NCBI GenBank assembly: GCA_017431785.1
Contig: JAFRKJ010000061.1
Span: 1 to 45,872 of the forward strand
Direction: 5' to 3'
Source: Bacillota bacterium
GTDB taxonomy: Bacteria; Bacillota; Clostridia; Peptostreptococcales; Anaerovoracaceae
Length of the DNA stretch: 45,872 nucleotides
Below the pieces are notes generated by a model, which was given only the letters and a program-made list of their open reading frames with translations, ran no database searches and was not told the DNA's origin. The translations under genes and the position numbers were made by a program. Shown here piece after piece: positions 2 to 18,299 of the stretch. The stretch's first letter is position 1. Each line of letters opens with the position of its first letter.

Positions 2-145
2 GTAGAGATGTGCATGCCTGGAGATAACATCACGATGCAGATCAAGCTGATCACACCGATCGCGATCGAAGAAGGACTGAGATTCGCTATCAGAGAAGGC
101 GGCAGAACAGTAGGATCCGGCGTTGTAACTGAAATTATCGAATAA
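2..145 (+). CDS. tuf: Elongation factor Tu, C-terminal fragment
   Basis: The window opens inside this gene; 47 codons remain before the TAA at 143-145. The residues match the third (beta-barrel) domain of EF-Tu: a VEMCMPGDN segment, then [15 protein letters not shown], then GSGVVTEI near the end. EF-Tu delivers aminoacyl-tRNA to the ribosome in the cytoplasm. Only the C-terminal part is visible, so upstream neighbours are unknown. A strong terminator follows directly. Confidence 0.96.
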
Positions 146-164
146 TTACAGATACGCATAAAAC

Positions 165-200
165 AAAAAGCGTTGGAGCATAAGCTCCGACGCTTTTTTA
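165..200 (+). terminator. Intrinsic terminator after tuf
   Basis: An 11-base stem (AGCGTTGGAGC with GCTCCGACGCT, one G-T pair) closes a four-base ATAA loop at 169-194 and runs into six T residues. An A-rich stretch before the stem lets it also work for the converging minus-strand gene that ends at 233. Confidence 0.9.
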
Positions 201-232
201 TTGCTTTTGTCTGCGCTGCTTTTGCAGTCGTT

Positions 233-10608: not shown

Positions 10609-11982
10609 TTATTCAATCGGTGGAAGTGTTTCGAAGTACTTCTCGAGCTCTTCGTCTGTTGGAACATAGTCATCCATGATTCCGTCGTGATACTTTTCGT
10701 AAGCCACCATATCGAAGTAGCCGGTTCCGGTCAGACCGAATACGATGGTCTTTTCTTCACCCGTTTCAATACACTTCTTGGCTTCGTCGAGAGCGACCTT
10801 GATTGCATGGGAGCTTTCCGGAGCAGGGAGAATGCCTTCCACTCTTGCGAATTCTTCCGCAGCTGCAAATACTTCTGTCTGCGGCACAGCGATGGCTTCC
10901 ATAAGACCATCATCGTAGAGCTGTGAGAGAACAGGACTCATACCATGGTATCTGAGACCGCCTGCGTGGTTCGGAGCAGGAATGAATCCGCTGCCCAGGG
11001 TGTACATCTTAGCAAGCGGACAAACCATGCCAGTGTCAGCAAAGTCATATGCGTATCTTCCTCTTGTGAAACTTGGGCAGGACGCAGGTTCTACGGCGAT
11101 GATGCGGTAGTCCGCGTTACCTTTGATTTTTTCACCCATGAATGGCGCGATGAGTCCGCCGAGGTTGGAACCGCCGCCTGCGCATCCGATGATCATATCA
11201 GGGACAATGCCGTATTTATCAAGAGCAGCTTTTGTTTCAAGACCGATGATGGACTGATGGAGCAGCACCTGATTGAGCACGCTTCCCAGGACATATCTGT
11301 AACCTGGTGTTGAGGTTGCGACTTCAACTGCCTCAGAGATCGCGCAGCCGAGACTTCCTGTTGTACCCGGATGTTCTTCCAGAATCTTCTTGCCGATCTG
11401 CGTTGTCTCAGAAGGAGATGGGGTGACGGAAGCACCGTAAGTGCGCATCACTTCTCTTCTGAACGGCTTCTGTTCATAGGACACCTTGACCATGTAGACT
11501 TTGCAGTCAAGATCGAAGTAGGAACAAGCCATCGAGAGGGCAGTACCCCACTGACCGGCTCCGGTTTCTGTCGTCACGCCTTTGAGACCTTGCTGCTTGG
11601 CGTAGTATGCCTGCGCAATAGCGGAGTTGAGCTTGTGACTTCCGCTTGTGTTGTTTCCTTCGAACTTGTAGTAGATTTTTGCAGGAGTGCCCAGCTTCTC
11701 TTCAAGACAGTATGCCCTGACAAGAGGTGAAGGTCTGTACATTTTGTAGAAGTCCCGTATCTCCTGTGGGATTTCAATAAATGGATCTGTATTGTTTAGC
11801 TCCTGTTTGCAGAGCTCCTCACAGAATACAGGAGAAAGATCCTCCAAGGTCATCGGCTGGTGTGTTCCGGGATGGATGAGAGGGGCTGGTTTGTTGATCA
11901 TGTCCGCTCTCAGGTTGTACCAAGCTTTTGGCATCTCATTTTCTTCGAGGTATATTTTATAAGGGATCGTATCTTTAGACAT
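10609..11982 (-). CDS. trpB2: Stand-alone tryptophan synthase beta chain (TrpB2 type)
   Basis: The 457-residue PLP enzyme condenses indole with L-serine to make tryptophan. The Schiff-base Lys is in TSGSHKLNSA, the substrate loop in TETGAGQWG, the phosphate-binding glycines in GCAGGGSNLGG, and FGLTGTGYFD is at the C-terminal side. Its length and the RADMINKPAPLIHPGTHQP entry fit the longer TrpB2 group rather than TrpB1. No trpA or other trp gene is adjacent, so salvage of free indole is the likely role. AAAGGA precedes ATG 11982; the frame continues upstream through 18-base repeats to a GTG at 12045 without a ribosome site and is not used. A Trp-codon leader peptide and terminator lie upstream. 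Confidence 0.94.
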   Translation of the reverse strand: MSKDTIPYKIYLEENEMPKAWYNLRADMINKPAPLIHPGTHQPMTLEDLSPVFCEELCKQELNNTDPFIEIPQEIRDFYKMYRPSPLVRAYCLEEKLGTPAKIYYKFEGNNTSGSHKLNSAIAQAYYAKQQGLKGVTTETGAGQWGTALSMACSYFDLDCKVYMVKVSYEQKPFRREVMRTYGASVTPSPSETTQIGKKILEEHPGTTGSLGCAISEAVEVATSTPGYRYVLGSVLNQVLLHQSIIGLETKAALDKYGIVPDMIIGCAGGGSNLGGLIAPFMGEKIKGNADYRIIAVEPASCPSFTRGRYAYDFADTGMVCPLAKMYTLGSGFIPAPNHAGGLRYHGMSPVLSQLYDDGLMEAIAVPQTEVFAAAEEFARVEGILPAPESSHAIKVALDEAKKCIETGEEKTIVFGLTGTGYFDMVAYEKYHDGIMDDYVPTDEELEKYFETLPPIE

Positions 11983-11997
11983 TTTACTGTTCCTTTC

Positions 11998-12051
11998 TTC
12001 TATCGTCACAAAGTCTTCTATTGTCACAAAGTCTTCTATTGTCACAAAGTC
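11998..12051. repeat. Three tandem 18-base repeats before trpB2
   Basis: Units 11998-12015, 12016-12033 and 12034-12051 share TTCTAT(T/C)GTCACAAAGTC, with one base change in the first copy. The array ends 15 bases upstream of the trpB2 start. The last unit overlaps a 15-base palindrome (CAAAGTC, T, GACTTTG; 12045-12059). Function unknown; protein binding or RNA structure near the ribosome site are possible. Confidence 0.9.
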
Positions 12052-12073
12052 TGACTTTGAATCATGTAATAGT

Positions 12074-12115
12074 TGGTTGTGTAATAATAATTTCTGGTTG
12101 TGTAATAATGATTTC
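12074..12115. repeat. Two tandem 21-base repeats in the trpB2 leader
   Basis: Copies 12074-12094 and 12095-12115 share TGGTTGTGTAATAAT and the closing ATTTC, differing at one base. They sit in an AT-rich part of the transcript between the attenuator terminator and the 18-base array. Confidence 0.85.
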
Positions 12116-12161
12116 TATATATGGTGTTTGTTAGGCGTTTGTTTTATCTTCTTAATCGTTT

Positions 12162-12217: not shown

Positions 12218-12253
12218 AAATAAAACAGCGGCTCCAGGTCAACCTGTGCCGCT
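12218..12253 (-). terminator. Attenuator terminator of trpB2
   Basis: On the minus-strand RNA, AGCGGC-A-CAGGT pairs with ACCTG-GA-GCCGCT across 12253-12227, followed by GTTTTATTT. It lies about 70 bases after the stop of the Trp leader peptide and 236 bases before trpB2, so it ends transcription before the gene unless an antiterminator forms. Confidence 0.88.
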
Positions 12254-12311
12254 TTTGTTCTGTAATGATATGTGTTGCTTATCAGTTGGTTCAGATCCTC
12301 AGCGTATGCTA

Positions 12312-12339
12312 ACAGGCCTTACATCTTAGATTGTAAAGC
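12312..12339 (-). promoter_or_regulatory. Competing hairpin segments of the Trp attenuator
   Basis: In the minus-strand RNA GCTTTACA (12339-12332) pairs with TGTAAGGC (12323-12316) around the leader stop codon; this is the 1:2 hairpin. The overlapping GGCCTGT can instead pair with ACAGGTT inside the terminator's 5' arm, with extra GC and GCT pairs after bulges. Ribosomes stalled at the Trp codons would cover segment 1 and favour that antiterminator. Pairings were read by eye and not computed. Confidence 0.65.
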
Positions 12340-12388
12340 TGCTGCACCACCAATATCCGTTTGTCATGATTCTTGAAATCGTCATCAT
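12326..12388 (-). CDS. Trp leader peptide (20 residues, Trp-Trp)
   Basis: The minus strand encodes a 20-residue peptide from ATG 12388 (or the adjacent ATG 12385) to TAA at 12328-12326. Residues 13 and 14 are both Trp (codons TGG TGG at 12352-12347), set in NGYWWCSS. AGGAGAG at 12397-12391 is a good ribosome binding site. A promoter lies just upstream and an intrinsic terminator downstream. This is the layout of a ribosome-sensed tryptophan attenuator as in the enteric trpL. It controls trpB2. The peptide itself probably has no other function. Confidence 0.85.
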   Translation of the reverse strand: MMTISRIMTNGYWWCSSFTI

Positions 12389-14036: not shown

Positions 14037-14066
14037 TAAAAATTCGCAGCAGATTATAAAAATGTG

Positions 14067-14105
14067 TTGACAGCCTTTGACAAGTGTGTTAGTTTGGTTT
14101 ATGTA
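14067..14105 (+). promoter_or_regulatory. Promoter region of the aromatic operon
   Basis: Two TTGACA boxes lie ten bases apart (14067-14072 and 14077-14082). The first is 17 bases from TAGTTT (14090-14095) and the second 17 from TATGTA (14100-14105). At least one should drive the leader; which is used cannot be decided here. Confidence 0.6.
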
Positions 14106-14114
14106 ATTAAAGCG

Positions 14115-14133
14115 CTGCAATCTGAAATTGCAG
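14115..14133 (+). promoter_or_regulatory. 5' hairpin before the Tyr/Phe leader peptide
   Basis: CTGCAAT and ATTGCAG form a perfect 7-base stem with a CTGAA loop, ending three bases before the leader peptide's GGAGAG. It may stabilise the transcript's 5' end or keep the ribosome site open. Confidence 0.6.
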
Positions 14134-14146
14134 ACTGGAGAGCCAA

Positions 14147-14245
14147 ATGAGTAAGAGAATGAACATCGCAAACGAATATTACTACTTTTATTTCGGCTTT
14201 ACTGGCGTGGACAGTAGGGTTAATTTGCGATGCTGGAATGATTAG
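14147..14245 (+). CDS. Tyr/Phe leader peptide (32 residues)
   Basis: GGAGAG at 14137-14142 precedes a 32-residue reading frame whose residues 11-18 are YYYFYFGF, i.e. four Tyr and three Phe codons in eight (14177-14200). Codons 6-9 contain CATCGCAAA (14164-14172), which pairs perfectly over nine bases with TTTGCGATG in codons 26-29 (14224-14232). An intrinsic terminator follows 28 bases after the stop. This is the form of an aromatic attenuator like enteric pheA and pheST leaders, placed in front of the SSS-paaK-ACT operon. Confidence 0.87.
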   Translation: MSKRMNIANEYYYFYFGFTGVDSRVNLRCWND

Positions 14246-14279
14246 CTTATTTGGATGAACTAGTTAAGTTTGAAGCGTC
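14164..14279 (+). promoter_or_regulatory. Alternative pairings of the Tyr/Phe attenuator
   Basis: Segment 1 (14164-14172) pairs with segment 2 (14224-14232). Segment 2 also offers GATGCT (14229-14234) to pair with AGCGTC (14274-14279), the first bases of the terminator stem. A ribosome stalled on the Tyr/Phe run hides segment 1 and permits this antiterminator; one that reaches the stop codon at 14243 hides segment 2 and lets the terminator form. The pairings were read by eye. Confidence 0.7.
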
Positions 14280-14303
14280 ACAGGTTAACCTGAGGCGCTT
14301 TTT
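14274..14303 (+). terminator. Attenuator terminator of the aromatic operon
   Basis: The stem starts AGCG (14274-14277) and closes GCGCT (14295-14299), with the inner CAGGT/ACCTG pairing around a short loop, one A-A mismatch and a T-G pair, followed by TTTTT. It lies 38 bases before the SSS gene start. Confidence 0.88.
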
Positions 14304-14341
14304 CTTATTTATATTATTCGTTATAGAGAAAGGAATTATTT

Positions 14342-15901
14342 ATGAACATCACAACAGTGCTGACCTTAGTGCTTATCATCATCTTCTTTGCAGTGATGAT
14401 CACGATAGGCATAAGGACAAGAAGACATGCCAGAAGCGTGGCAGGATTCGTTCTTGGTTCCAGATCCGTTGGCCCGTGGCTGAGTGCTTTTGCATTCGGT
14501 ACTTCATACTTTTCGGCAGTTATCTTCGTAGGATATGCCGGACAGTTCGGATGGAACTTCGGAATCGCTTCTACATGGATCGGCTTGGGAAATGCCTTTA
14601 TTGGATCACTCCTCGCATGGCTGATTCTCGGAAGACGTACCAGGATCATGACACAGCATCTGGACAGCCGTACGATGCCTGATTTCTTCGGATCAAGATT
14701 TGGATCTCAGAGACTCAGAGTTGCGGCATCCGTTATTACTTTCGTCTTTCTGATCCCGTATACAGCGTCTCTGTACAACGGACTTTCAAGACTCTTTGCA
14801 ATTGCATTTCCTGGACTTGACTATGCAGTCTGCGTTGTCGTTATGGCAGTACTGACCTGCATCTATGTAGTTCTCGGAGGCTACATGGCGACGGCAACCA
14901 ATGACTTCATCCAGGGCTGCATCATGTTGATCGGTATTGTTGCGGTCATACTGGCAGTACTGCATGACAATGGTGGTCTGAACGCTGCAATGGAGACACT
15001 GGCTACGGGAGAAAACGGAGGATGGCAGTACACAGCATTTCTTGGCGCAGATCCGGGATTCCTGTTCTTCGTCATCATGCTGACATCCCTGGGAACTTGG
15101 GGACTGCCGCAGATGGTCGGAAAATTCTACGCCATCACAAACGAAGACGCAATCAAGAAGGGAACTGTCATTTCAACATTCTTTGCCCTGATTGTCGCAG
15201 GCGGATGTTACTTCCTCGGAGGTTTCGGCAGACTGTATGATATAGATGTAGAAGCAGAAGGATTCGACGCAGTCATCCCAAGCATGCTTTCTACAGTTTC
15301 ACCGATTATTATTGGTATCATCATCGTGCTGGTTTTATCCGCATCCATGTCCACGCTGTCATCATTGGTACTGACGAGTTCATCCACGATTACACTGGAC
15401 TTTATCGGACCGCTGAAGAAGAATCCTATTGACGAGAGAAAGAAAGTCGTCATCATGCGTGTATTCATCGTCATATTTGTCATCATTTCAGCAATCATAG
15501 CAATCAAGCAGGCACATGCGAAGAGCCTCTTTATTGCACAGATGATGGGTATTTCCTGGGGCGCGCTGGCAGGATCCTTCCTGGCACCGTTCCTGTATGG
15601 GCTGTACACGAAGCACGTTTCCAAGGTGGCCGTTGCCTGCTGCTTCATATGGGCTACCTGCCTTGAGATTCTGCAGTTGTTCATCTCCCTTGGAATGCTC
15701 GATGTTTCAGGAAGCGCACTGCTGGGATTTGTGTTCAGAAATTCGCTCTACTCAGGTGTATTCGCCATGGTTGGAGGGCTCATCATTGTACCGATTGTCA
15801 CAGCGCTCAGCGCCAGGGCGATTCCAAAGAATACAGACGAGATATTCAGTTGCTACGAGTCGAAGCGGACAGTTGGAATCACAGATAATCTGGGTAAATA
15901 G
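14342..15901 (+). CDS. Sodium:solute symporter (SSS family)
   Basis: A 519-residue protein with about 13 hydrophobic helices and SSS-family features: an N-terminal helix followed by FVLGSRSVGPWLSAFAFGTSYFSAVIFVGY, then GLGNAFIGSLLAWLILGRR, VVLGGYMATATNDFIQG and SASMSTLSSLVLTSSS. It would couple uptake to Na+. The substrate is not fixed by sequence; its place behind a Tyr/Phe attenuator and in front of an arylacetate-CoA ligase suggests an arylacetate or aromatic acid, and known phenylacetate permeases (PaaL/Ppa) are SSS members. AAAGGA precedes ATG 14342. First structural gene of the operon. Confidence 0.93.
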   Translation: MNITTVLTLVLIIIFFAVMITIGIRTRRHARSVAGFVLGSRSVGPWLSAFAFGTSYFSAVIFVGYAGQFGWNFGIASTWIGLGNAFIGSLLAWLILGRRTRIMTQHLDSRTMPDFFGSRFGSQRLRVAASVITFVFLIPYTASLYNGLSRLFAIAFPGLDYAVCVVVMAVLTCIYVVLGGYMATATNDFIQGCIMLIGIVAVILAVLHDNGGLNAAMETLATGENGGWQYTAFLGADPGFLFFVIMLTSLGTWGLPQMVGKFYAITNEDAIKKGTVISTFFALIVAGGCYFLGGFGRLYDIDVEAEGFDAVIPSMLSTVSPIIIGIIIVLVLSASMSTLSSLVLTSSSTITLDFIGPLKKNPIDERKKVVIMRVFIVIFVIISAIIAIKQAHAKSLFIAQMMGISWGALAGSFLAPFLYGLYTKHVSKVAVACCFIWATCLEILQLFISLGMLDVSGSALLGFVFRNSLYSGVFAMVGGLIIVPIVTALSARAIPKNTDEIFSCYESKRTVGITDNLGK

Positions 15902-15949: not shown

Positions 15950-17257
15950 ATGACTAGCTATTATCAGAAAGAAATTGAGACCGCATCCAGAGAAGAGATT
16001 CTCAGAATCCAGAACGAGAAGATCCGGAAGCAGGTCAAACACGTTTACGAAAACGTACCCTATTACAGAAATTTGATGGAAGAAAAGGGGCTGACACCTG
16101 AGGATATCCAAGGTGTTGATGACATAAAAAAACTGCCATTCCTGTCGAAGGCAGACCTGAGAGATGCCTATCCATATGGGCTTCTGGGCGTGGACCTGAA
16201 AGACTGCGTACGCATTCAGTCCACCTCTGGTACAACAGGAAAGCGCGTCGTTGCTTTCTACACGCAGCCTGATGTGGATCTCTGGGAAGAGTGCTGTGCG
16301 AGAGCTATCGTAGCGGCAGGCGGAAACGAAGACGATGTTGTTCAGGTCGCTTATGGATACGGGCTGTTCACGGGCGGCGCCGGCCTTCACGGCGGATCCC
16401 ACAAGGTCGGATGTCTGACGTTGCCGATGTCCTCCGGAAACACAGAGCGCCAGATTCAATTCATGATGGATCTGGATGCAACGATTCTTTGCTGCACGCC
16501 TTCCTATGCGGCATTCATAGGAGAGTCCCTTGCAGAGAGAGGATATAAGCCAGAGGATAATAAGCTCAAGGCAGGCATCTTTGGCGCGGAACCTTGGACA
16601 GAAGAGATGCGCCAGAGTATCCAGAAGAGCCTGGGCATCAAGGCATACGATATCTATGGATTAACGGAAACCAGCGGTCCGGGCGTCGCCTTCGAATGTG
16701 AGGCGCAAAGCGGCATGCACATCAACGAAGACCACTTCTACGCAGAGATCATTGATCCGGATACAGGCGAAGTGTTGCCGGAAGGATCCAAGGGCGAGCT
16801 GGTATTCACAGCTCTTGACAAAGAAGCATTCCCGCTTTTGCGTTATCGTACCCGCGATATATGCGTACTCACCCGTGAGAAATGCCCTTGCGGACGTACC
16901 CACGTGAAGATGAGTAAGCCGATGGGAAGAAGCGATGATATGCTGATCATCCGCGGCGTCAATGTATTCCCTAGCCAGATCGAGACAGTGCTTCTCAACG
17001 AGGGATACACGCCGAATTATCAGATCGAGATCGGACGTAAGAACAATACAGATACGCTGGATATCTATGTTGAAGCGGATCCGGCTAAGGTATCCGATAA
17101 GATAGCTGATATCCAGGATATGGAAAATGGACTTGCATCTGCAATGCGTACTATGCTGGGTATCGGGCCTAAGATCCACCTTGTACCGCCTAAGACGATC
17201 ACAAGGAGTGAGGGTAAGGCTGTCAGAGTTATCGATAATCGTAAACTGCATGATTAA
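15950..17257 (+). CDS. paaK: Phenylacetate (aryl-acetate) CoA ligase
   Basis: This 435-residue AMP-forming ligase activates phenylacetate or similar aryl acids with ATP and CoA. The adenylate-forming signature is STSGTTGKRVV, followed by YGLTETSGPG, YRTRDIC with an adjacent CPCGRTH zinc-like knuckle, and DDMLIIRGVNVFPSQIE in the C-terminal domain. In anaerobes such ligases sit beside indolepyruvate ferredoxin oxidoreductase systems, where aryl-CoA can be reductively carboxylated to arylpyruvate and then aminated to Phe or Tyr. No ior gene is in the window. Immediately followed by an ACT-domain gene, as is usual for this ligase group. Confidence 0.93.
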   Translation: MTSYYQKEIETASREEILRIQNEKIRKQVKHVYENVPYYRNLMEEKGLTPEDIQGVDDIKKLPFLSKADLRDAYPYGLLGVDLKDCVRIQSTSGTTGKRVVAFYTQPDVDLWEECCARAIVAAGGNEDDVVQVAYGYGLFTGGAGLHGGSHKVGCLTLPMSSGNTERQIQFMMDLDATILCCTPSYAAFIGESLAERGYKPEDNKLKAGIFGAEPWTEEMRQSIQKSLGIKAYDIYGLTETSGPGVAFECEAQSGMHINEDHFYAEIIDPDTGEVLPEGSKGELVFTALDKEAFPLLRYRTRDICVLTREKCPCGRTHVKMSKPMGRSDDMLIIRGVNVFPSQIETVLLNEGYTPNYQIEIGRKNNTDTLDIYVEADPAKVSDKIADIQDMENGLASAMRTMLGIGPKIHLVPPKTITRSEGKAVRVIDNRKLHD

Positions 17258-17269
17258 GGAGGAACGGAA

Positions 17270-17674
17270 ATGGCTATTACACAATTATCAATATTTCTTG
17301 AAAACAAACCGGGAACGCTGCACGAGACTGTAAAGCGTATTTCGGAGGCTGGTGTCAATATCCGCGCAATGACCATTGCGGAAGTACGAGACTTCGGCAT
17401 ATTGAGAATCATCGTATCGGATGTAGAAAAAGCCATGTCAGTTCTGCAGGACGATCATATTATTACAACAACAGAAGTTGTCTCAGCAGTCATGGAAGAT
17501 AAGGCAGGAGCGCTCTATGATATCCTTCAGGCGCTCGAATCAGCCAATGTAAACATTGAATACATGTATGCATATACTGGTGAGGTCACCGGAAGTGCAA
17601 ATGTTGTATTCCGTGTTGATGACATTGAAGGGGCTGAAGCGAAGCTGAAAGAGGCAGGCGTGCAGGTACTGTAG
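17270..17674 (+). CDS. Tandem ACT-domain amino-acid-binding protein
   Basis: The 134-residue protein consists of two ACT domains. The first begins QLSIFLENKPGTLHETVKRI with GVNIRAMTI; the second has MEDKAGALYDILQALESANVNIEYMYAY. No catalytic domain is present. ACT pairs bind amino acids and often sit downstream of phenylacetate-CoA ligase genes, where they probably sense the aromatic product. AAGGAGG precedes the ATG, 12 bases after paaK, so the two are co-transcribed. Confidence 0.93.
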   Translation: MAITQLSIFLENKPGTLHETVKRISEAGVNIRAMTIAEVRDFGILRIIVSDVEKAMSVLQDDHIITTTEVVSAVMEDKAGALYDILQALESANVNIEYMYAYTGEVTGSANVVFRVDDIEGAEAKLKEAGVQVL

Positions 17675-18270: not shown

Positions 18271-18299
18271 TTGACACACACTTGTGGAATCAGTATAAT
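18271..18299 (+). promoter_or_regulatory. Consensus sigma-A promoter of the NSS transporter
   Basis: TTGACA (18271-18276), 17 bases, TATAAT (18294-18299): a perfect match to consensus. The leader contains a small hairpin (TTGTG and CACAA around six T, 18316-18331) before the ribosome site. Confidence 0.92.

Follow-up and report, generated by a model that had tools for sequence, protein, structure and literature searches.

A predicted Tyr/Phe leader-peptide attenuator upstream of a symporter-PaaK-ACT operon in Clostridia

Leader-peptide attenuators for Phe or Trp are known in enteric bacteria, where they act at pheA, pheST and trp of Escherichia coli. We analysed a comparable element in contig JAFRKJ010000061.1 of a rumen Bacillota bacterium of the family Anaerovoracaceae (45,872 nucleotides, hereafter the window; contig C15 of the 96 contigs of genome G000), in which a short open reading frame (ORF) with a run of Tyr and Phe codons lies upstream of an operon encoding a symporter, a PaaK-like ligase and an ACT protein. 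In common with the enteric attenuators, this element has a short frame carrying tandem codons, three pairings that exclude one another (1:2, 2:3 and 3:4) and an intrinsic terminator. Unlike them, it has no Rfam match at gathering score, joins Tyr and Phe codons (at times also Trp, in related leaders) in a single run, and precedes those three genes.

Accounts of leader peptides for His and Leu in Firmicutes already exist (PMC2965389, PMC5794164, PMC9413887). In the excerpts of these accounts considered here, control is likewise by leader-peptide attenuation, and in part of the cases related bacteria have T-boxes instead, whereas the amino acids, genes and sequences are different and no aromatic case appears. 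A Phe-codon upstream ORF (uORF) with a terminator before aroF, the uORFC-13-1 motif, has been proposed in Acholeplasma (PMC8632094); unlike the clostridial aroF leaders presented below, with which it was compared by description only, it is described in that excerpt from Acholeplasma and environmental DNA only. The Tyr T-box (RF00230) senses tRNA-Tyr charging, as the window leader would, and stands before related symporters, but it binds the tRNA directly, makes no peptide and reads one tRNA per element. Neither an aromatic leader set in Clostridia nor a T-box/leader exchange at this transporter was found in the searches made of open-licence PubMed Central papers, and the window element is apparently one of an undescribed aromatic set in Clostridia. 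A preliminary description, made from the sequence alone, had called the element undescribed, which appears to hold for the aromatic clostridial set but not for the class of mechanism, given the His and Leu cases.

The leader and its alternative pairings

The leader ORF (14147..14245, on the plus strand like the rest of the element) begins with ATG and has 32 codons (MSKRMNIANEYYYFYFGFTGVDSRVNLRCWND); a ribosome site, GGAG, lies 6 bases before the ATG (14137..14140), and comparable sites occur in relatives. Codons 11-18 (14177-14200) encode YYYFYFGF. This density of 7 aromatic residues in 8 is beyond chance: when region 14037-14341 was shuffled 2000 times with dinucleotides preserved, short ORFs preceded by a ribosome site never held more than 6 aromatics in any stretch of 8, a count that came up in 3 shuffles. 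No other ORF of this kind with at least 5 aromatics in 8 is present on either strand of the window. Ahead of the run, segment 1 (CATCGCAAA, 14164..14172) is the perfect complement (9/9 bp) of TTTGCGATG (14224-14232), a part of segment 2 (GGTTAATTTGCGATGC, 14218..14233). Alignment and pair counts identify segment 2 as the partner of either segment 1 or segment 3 (GCGTCACAGGTTAACC, 14275..14290), and segment 3 as both the antiterminator partner and the 5' side of an intrinsic terminator (3:4) with a U tract (14272..14303, stem 14272-14301), to which pair counts and folds also point. In the antiterminator helix (2:3), 15 of 16 positions pair (14218-14233 with 14275-14290). The frame, its ribosome site, the run and the perfect pairing across it had all been noticed in the preliminary description; the alternative pairing of GATGCT with AGCGTC is also real, but had been understated, as it is one end of this longer helix.

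At gathering scores the single Rfam match in the window was a tRNA, and there was no T-box, in agreement with the preliminary description, nor any match to the Rfam amino-acid leader families (Phe, Trp, His and others). Four T-boxes were found in the window genome, on contigs C2, C13 and C83, and none on the window contig.

We put at roughly 90% the probability that the element is a ribosome-mediated leader-peptide transcription attenuator for Phe and Tyr. Such an attenuator would sense the charging of tRNA-Tyr and tRNA-Phe together. With both amino acids plentiful, the ribosome would pass the YYYFYFGF codons and cover segment 2, so that the 3:4 terminator would form and the operon would be off; with either one short, it would stall on the run and cover segment 1, leaving segment 2 free for the 2:3 antiterminator; and if there were no translation, 1:2 would form and so would the terminator. 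The purpose would presumably be to take up more aromatic amino acids, or precursors of them, and to activate more of them with coenzyme A (CoA) at Phe/Tyr shortage.

The folds of the window leader are consistent with this scheme. Region 14100-14310 folds better than 200 of 200 shuffles (z -4.16), and the two states expected in the preliminary description were both recovered, the full leader folding freely into 1:2 plus 3:4 and the leader without segment 1 (from 14190 on) into 2:3; from 14240 on, the fold is the terminator. The mean pair probability of the terminator was 0.98 without a ribosome, 0.10 with a stalled one and 0.97 with a finished one. For the antiterminator pairing, computed before segment 4 is made, the corresponding values were 0.23, 0.83 and 0.15, and the stalled value was reached by 2 of 60 shuffles.

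Conservation in relatives and rival explanations

A search of 49 genus genomes for the symporter gave matches in 48 (the weaker ones mostly to other superfamily members), and we read the best 30 loci. Upstream of these were 11 aromatic leaders (in G000, G178, G153, G152, G181, G182, G154, G166, G150, G163 and G165), 15 T-box cores recognised by pattern, and neither sensor at four loci (L171, L185, L187 and L184, the last of them without upstream sequence). The leader peptides diverge outside the run (e.g. MAKTVNIAKAYYYFYFGFTADR, MRNELSIANVKKYYYFYFYPSCQMG and MNRVLSIAKYFYFYLSFSGRDNLQCLKQCF) and, in close relatives, are 22 to 32 residues long. Within the run, the nine closest leaders have only synonymous changes at codons 11, 14, 15 and 16 and are invariant at 12, 17 and 18; codon 13 encodes Trp in a single leader and Tyr in the other eight.

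Pairing was assessed in alignment A2, which holds 11 sequences, seven of the genus plus L072, L069, L078 and L136 from other metagenome-assembled genomes (MAGs); four more in-genus leaders, near copies, had been left out beforehand. The cells were paired in 94.8% (1:2), 89.7% (2:3) and 90.2% (3:4) of cases, with changes on both sides in 3 of 9, 4 of 15 and 7 of 12 pairs, respectively. With partners moved by 1-3 columns, at most 45.4% (1:2), 43.0% (2:3) and 62.6% (3:4) of cells paired, a control that favours the proposed structure because the latter was drawn from the first sequence of A2. The double-change count of 3:4 was reached by none of 500 shuffles. Because the double-change counts of 2:3 and 1:2 are not clearly above those of shuffles, support for these two pairings comes from the fraction paired, the slides and the covariation score, the latter reached by 2 (2:3) and 1 (1:2) of 500 shuffles. 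Compensatory changes in 2:3 include GGTTAA/TTAACC, GGATAA/TTATCC, GGTCGA/TCGATC and GGTTGA/TCAACC. The complete 1:2, 2:3, 3:4 logic attributed to the leader at the outset is thus held in 90-95% of cells across the 11 sequences, and the expected comparative pattern was obtained: relatives retain the run, with synonymous drift, and the stems, which covary, as well as the terminator and the gene. One of these sequences, L078, is on a MAG contig labelled Spirochaetia, where a clostridial-type Tyr leader accompanies a symporter 75% identical to that of the window; this would imply either inter-phylum transfer or a mislabelled bin.

Switch folds were tried with 39 members and evaluated in 38 (L029 was excluded). 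When the transcript was cut before segment 4, antiterminator pairing averaged over the 38 members was 0.47 in the naive state, 0.76 with a stalled ribosome and 0.38 with a finished one, against 0.54 for shuffled stretches; as modelled, the window switches clearly, whereas the other members do so only on average. Several results weigh against attenuation. Full-length equilibrium folds gave the switch pattern in 11 of the 38 members and no switch in 27. In the cut transcripts, stalling brought a gain of at least 0.3 in only 15 of the 38, no more than 3 of 60 shuffles came as high in likewise only 15, and in L072 the antiterminator changed in the wrong direction on stalling. The double-change counts of 2:3 and 1:2 were reached by 113 and 37 of 500 shuffles, and their pair-type counts by 351 and 417. 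Finally, G164 (L171), one of the 12 symporters in the window's in-genus clade that were read upstream, keeps the terminator and has no leader frame, a combination that the preliminary description had named as contrary evidence; it was seen this once, and 11 genus loci keep the leader.

The same evidence bears on other explanations. A conserved short ORF, followed by a terminator between two same-strand genes, might encode a small functional aromatic peptide, the terminator ending the transcript of the upstream thiamine diphosphokinase gene or setting a fixed level. However, the peptide varies outside the run and in length even among close relatives (the 22 to 32 residues given above), the 5' arm of the terminator covaries with segment 2, which is inside or just behind the ORF, and an identical layout precedes other genes, so that we consider this improbable. 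Strong folding and a terminator are also what a small-molecule riboswitch or a protein-binding antiterminator would have, in an RNA translated by chance, but the aromatic residues are kept while third codon positions change, the choice of residue tracks the gene and no Rfam family matches at gathering; we give this even less credence than the functional peptide.

The leader might also sense general ribosome stalling, caused for instance by a drug, rather than Phe/Tyr supply. Such leaders exist, as uORFC-6-1 illustrates in the excerpt of PMC8632094 cited here, but dense aromatic runs precede aromatic amino-acid genes and Tyr T-boxes precede related symporters, which makes this the most remote of the three alternatives. 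Attenuation governed by Phe and Tyr supply is the explanation that we favour.

Tyr T-boxes and related leaders in Clostridia

A wider set of symporters comprised 138 loci (some genomes being represented twice), 137 of them with protein. By upstream sequence, these 137 divide into 44 with a T-box core, 20 with a leader, 69 with neither and 4 with too little sequence, L029 and L069 having been labelled as leader by hand. Ten T-boxes aligned by Rfam all matched RF00230 (E 1e-17 or better; nine at gathering) and all had the specifier UAC; those of L073, L074, L075 and L079 were also above RF00230 gathering. With the specifier slot described as GAA...XXXA (in the excerpt of PMC5794164 used here), the strict pattern gave UAC (Tyr) in 39 of the 44 cores; the other five have GAAUAC by eye (L019, L084 and L085) or UAC two bases further on (L107 and L138). 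Upstream regions lacking a T-box core had the pattern in 1 of 89 cases (L187). The slot was controlled in the window genome, where it read AUC before an IleS-like and CUC before a LeuA-like protein (both recognised by eye), AUC before a ferredoxin oxidoreductase subunit (PF01558) and UAC before an AMP-binding CoA ligase. The last of these (L190; G000:C2:21257-21536, minus strand), with its Tyr specifier before a CoA ligase other than that of the operon, is consistent with a Tyr-related CoA ligase role.

We placed 128 symporters in an unrooted FastTree tree, omitting four duplicate loci, L003 and the four rows with little upstream sequence. This tree requires 2 changes between T-box and leader, rows with neither being uncounted. 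The window symporter belongs to a clade of 19, of which 15 have a leader and 4 neither sensor; its sister clade numbers 7, three of them with a T-box, and supports are 99 for the fork and 96 and 90 for the two sister clades. A separate leader group consists of L029 and L136; the L029 leader (G019) is weak, with MEMKRNFAQLDRYYYSYSATI and a terminator seen by eye, no terminator found there by the scripted search, and nothing found by model R2 (see below) in G019 at E 0.05. The predicted leader is thus where sister species have a predicted Tyr T-box. The contrast drawn initially, of Firmicutes amino-acid genes being better known for T-box or TRAP control, stands in that the window has no T-box, but T-boxes do precede the orthologous transporter in sister species.

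Two models were used to search for related leaders, R1, built on alignment A4 (10 sequences), and R2, built on A6 (13 sequences, Phe and Trp members included). Both contain Tyr/Phe codons and favour such matches, whereas an open frame behind a ribosome site and an aromatic gene downstream are not built in; in the large searches, strict filters lose weak matches. R1 matched 15 of the 49 genomes of the genus. R2 matched 30 of 349 genomes (12 of 92 genera) in the family, 16 of 393 in the order sample, all within the window's family, and 9 of 391 in the class sample, of which seven belong to five further families. In the family search, 14 matching genomes lay outside the genus, and all have an in-frame aromatic leader, followed by an aroF-type gene in 11, pheA (PF00800) at L255, a deoxyribonuclease IV gene at L248 and the contig end at L254, and the seven new class-level matches are all aromatic leaders before an aroF-type gene. 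The aroF-type identity was established by profile at L207, L242, L279 and L285 and by likeness at the others. Among genus loci of the first aroF type, which were not chosen by a model (L212-L224), 12 of 13 have an aromatic leader within 420 bases; at L214 the later part of the element is seen further upstream. An aromatic scan of the other 17 of the 30 genus aroF loci gave no accepted leader (three without a start). A recurring FYFDFE stretch at these loci was not accepted, as it looks like the end of the upstream gene. The window genome also has an aroF-like gene, on contig C55. In A7, an alignment of 14 aroF leaders, the terminator is poorly aligned.

Related leaders thus precede aroF-type, pheA and TrpB-like genes, and the codon identity of the run follows the downstream gene. 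Runs before aroF contain Tyr and Phe and at times Trp (KIWYWYYF, L242), the pheA run is KFFFSFTF, and TrpB-like genes have YWWWRSF or YWWCSSF. A paaK without symporter (G167) has a Phe-rich leader with no Tyr (NFTFNFSFFFSF); L072, with PaaK downstream, has YWFWFYF, and L069, L078 and L136, downstream of which no PaaK motif was found, have mostly Tyr. Two further Tyr-run leaders belong to one genus, DYYYYYYF at L248 (1501-1651, G221), where the next gene, deoxyribonuclease IV, is an odd target, and KVYYYYYLF at L254 (1501-1649, reverse strand, G262).

A second, Trp-rich leader with a terminator (MMTISRIMTNGYWWCSSFTI; ORF 12388-12326, YWWCSSF) lies in the window itself at 12220..12388 on the minus strand, before a divergent TrpB-like gene. 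It scored 53.6 bits (E 1.6e-8 in the window) with R2, which included two Trp relatives when built, and only 23 bits (E 0.013) with R1. Its segment 2 differs from that in G154, G182 and G181, and its antiterminator pairing was 0.17 naive, 0.91 stalled and 0.99 finished, the last value going against the simple model. A model match at window 104-201 (R1 E 0.0052; R2 E 0.00082, as 124-201; genome-wide E 0.049) is without an aromatic frame and was taken as a plain terminator.

The operon, its neighbours and aromatic metabolism

Profile matches agree with the operon composition first proposed. The first gene (14342..15901, plus strand) encodes a sodium:solute symporter (PF00474; its NCBIfam matches were all under cut-off) that shows 100% identity across 519 residues with a protein from a MAG contig that carries the label uncultured Clostridiales bacterium RUG10876. 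The second (15950..17257, plus) encodes a PaaK-like aryl-CoA ligase (PF14535; the TIGR02155 match scores 515.5 bits, short of the cut-off at 646.3), and the third (17270..17674, plus) a double ACT-domain protein (PF19571, PF01842). Upstream of the leader, the thiamine diphosphokinase gene is on the same strand as the operon, and further upstream is the TrpB-like pyridoxal phosphate enzyme (10609..11985, minus; NF009057, 683.6 bits versus a cut-off of 366). Just before the latter gene, at 11985-12120 (minus), short direct repeats (TTTGTGACAATAGAAGAC, TTATTATTACACAACCA motif) would, with a start far upstream, be translated as a VTIEDF repeat in frame. A candidate promoter, TTGACA-17-TAGTTT (14067..14095, plus), was read in the sequence; its second hexamer is weak, the same arrangement is visible in L162, L163, L164, L166, L167 and L169, and a sigma-70 scan of the window did not list this site. 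Downstream of the operon, a gene of the neurotransmitter:sodium symporter family (PF00209, 18318-19859) is preceded by a perfect TTGACA-17-TATAAT (18271-18299). No symporter relatives were found in the viral contigs searched.

The operon is tied indirectly to aromatic metabolism, through its PaaK-like ligase and the Tyr T-boxes before related symporters. In methanogens, PaaK and indolepyruvate ferredoxin oxidoreductase (IOR) acting in the reductive direction convert aryl-acetates into aryl-pyruvates. The IOR alpha subunit (TIGR03336) is over cut-off in 43 of the 49 genus genomes, and in the window genome one copy is encoded at C75:6541-8352, followed by a PaaK homologue (C75:9002-10216) 44% identical to that of the window; this pair is a possible partner in arylacetate assimilation. 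An operon induced at Phe/Tyr shortage would fit the reductive, aryl-pyruvate-making direction. Synthesis of Phe from phenylacetate by rumen bacteria is reported (Allison 1965, as cited in PMC7356843).

We tentatively suggest, at rather less than even odds, that a single versatile clostridial attenuator lineage, retargeted among Tyr, Phe and Trp by its codon run, acts over aroF, pheA, TrpB-like, paaK and transporter operons, that it replaces a single-tRNA Tyr T-box at a transporter joined to an aryl-CoA ligase, where it would read several aromatic tRNAs, and that it marks the symporter-PaaK-ACT operon as biosynthetic, from arylacetates to Phe and Tyr, and not degradative. If the attenuator reading is correct, Phe, Tyr and Trp would join the amino acids with known leader peptides in Firmicutes, and related transporters under a T-box or a leader peptide within one genus would provide a natural comparison of the two. 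It would also bear on the direction of PaaK operons, as genes that are on at Phe/Tyr shortage should build Phe and Tyr, and the symporter-PaaK-ACT operon would be a candidate regulated gene set for rumen Phe synthesis from phenylacetate.
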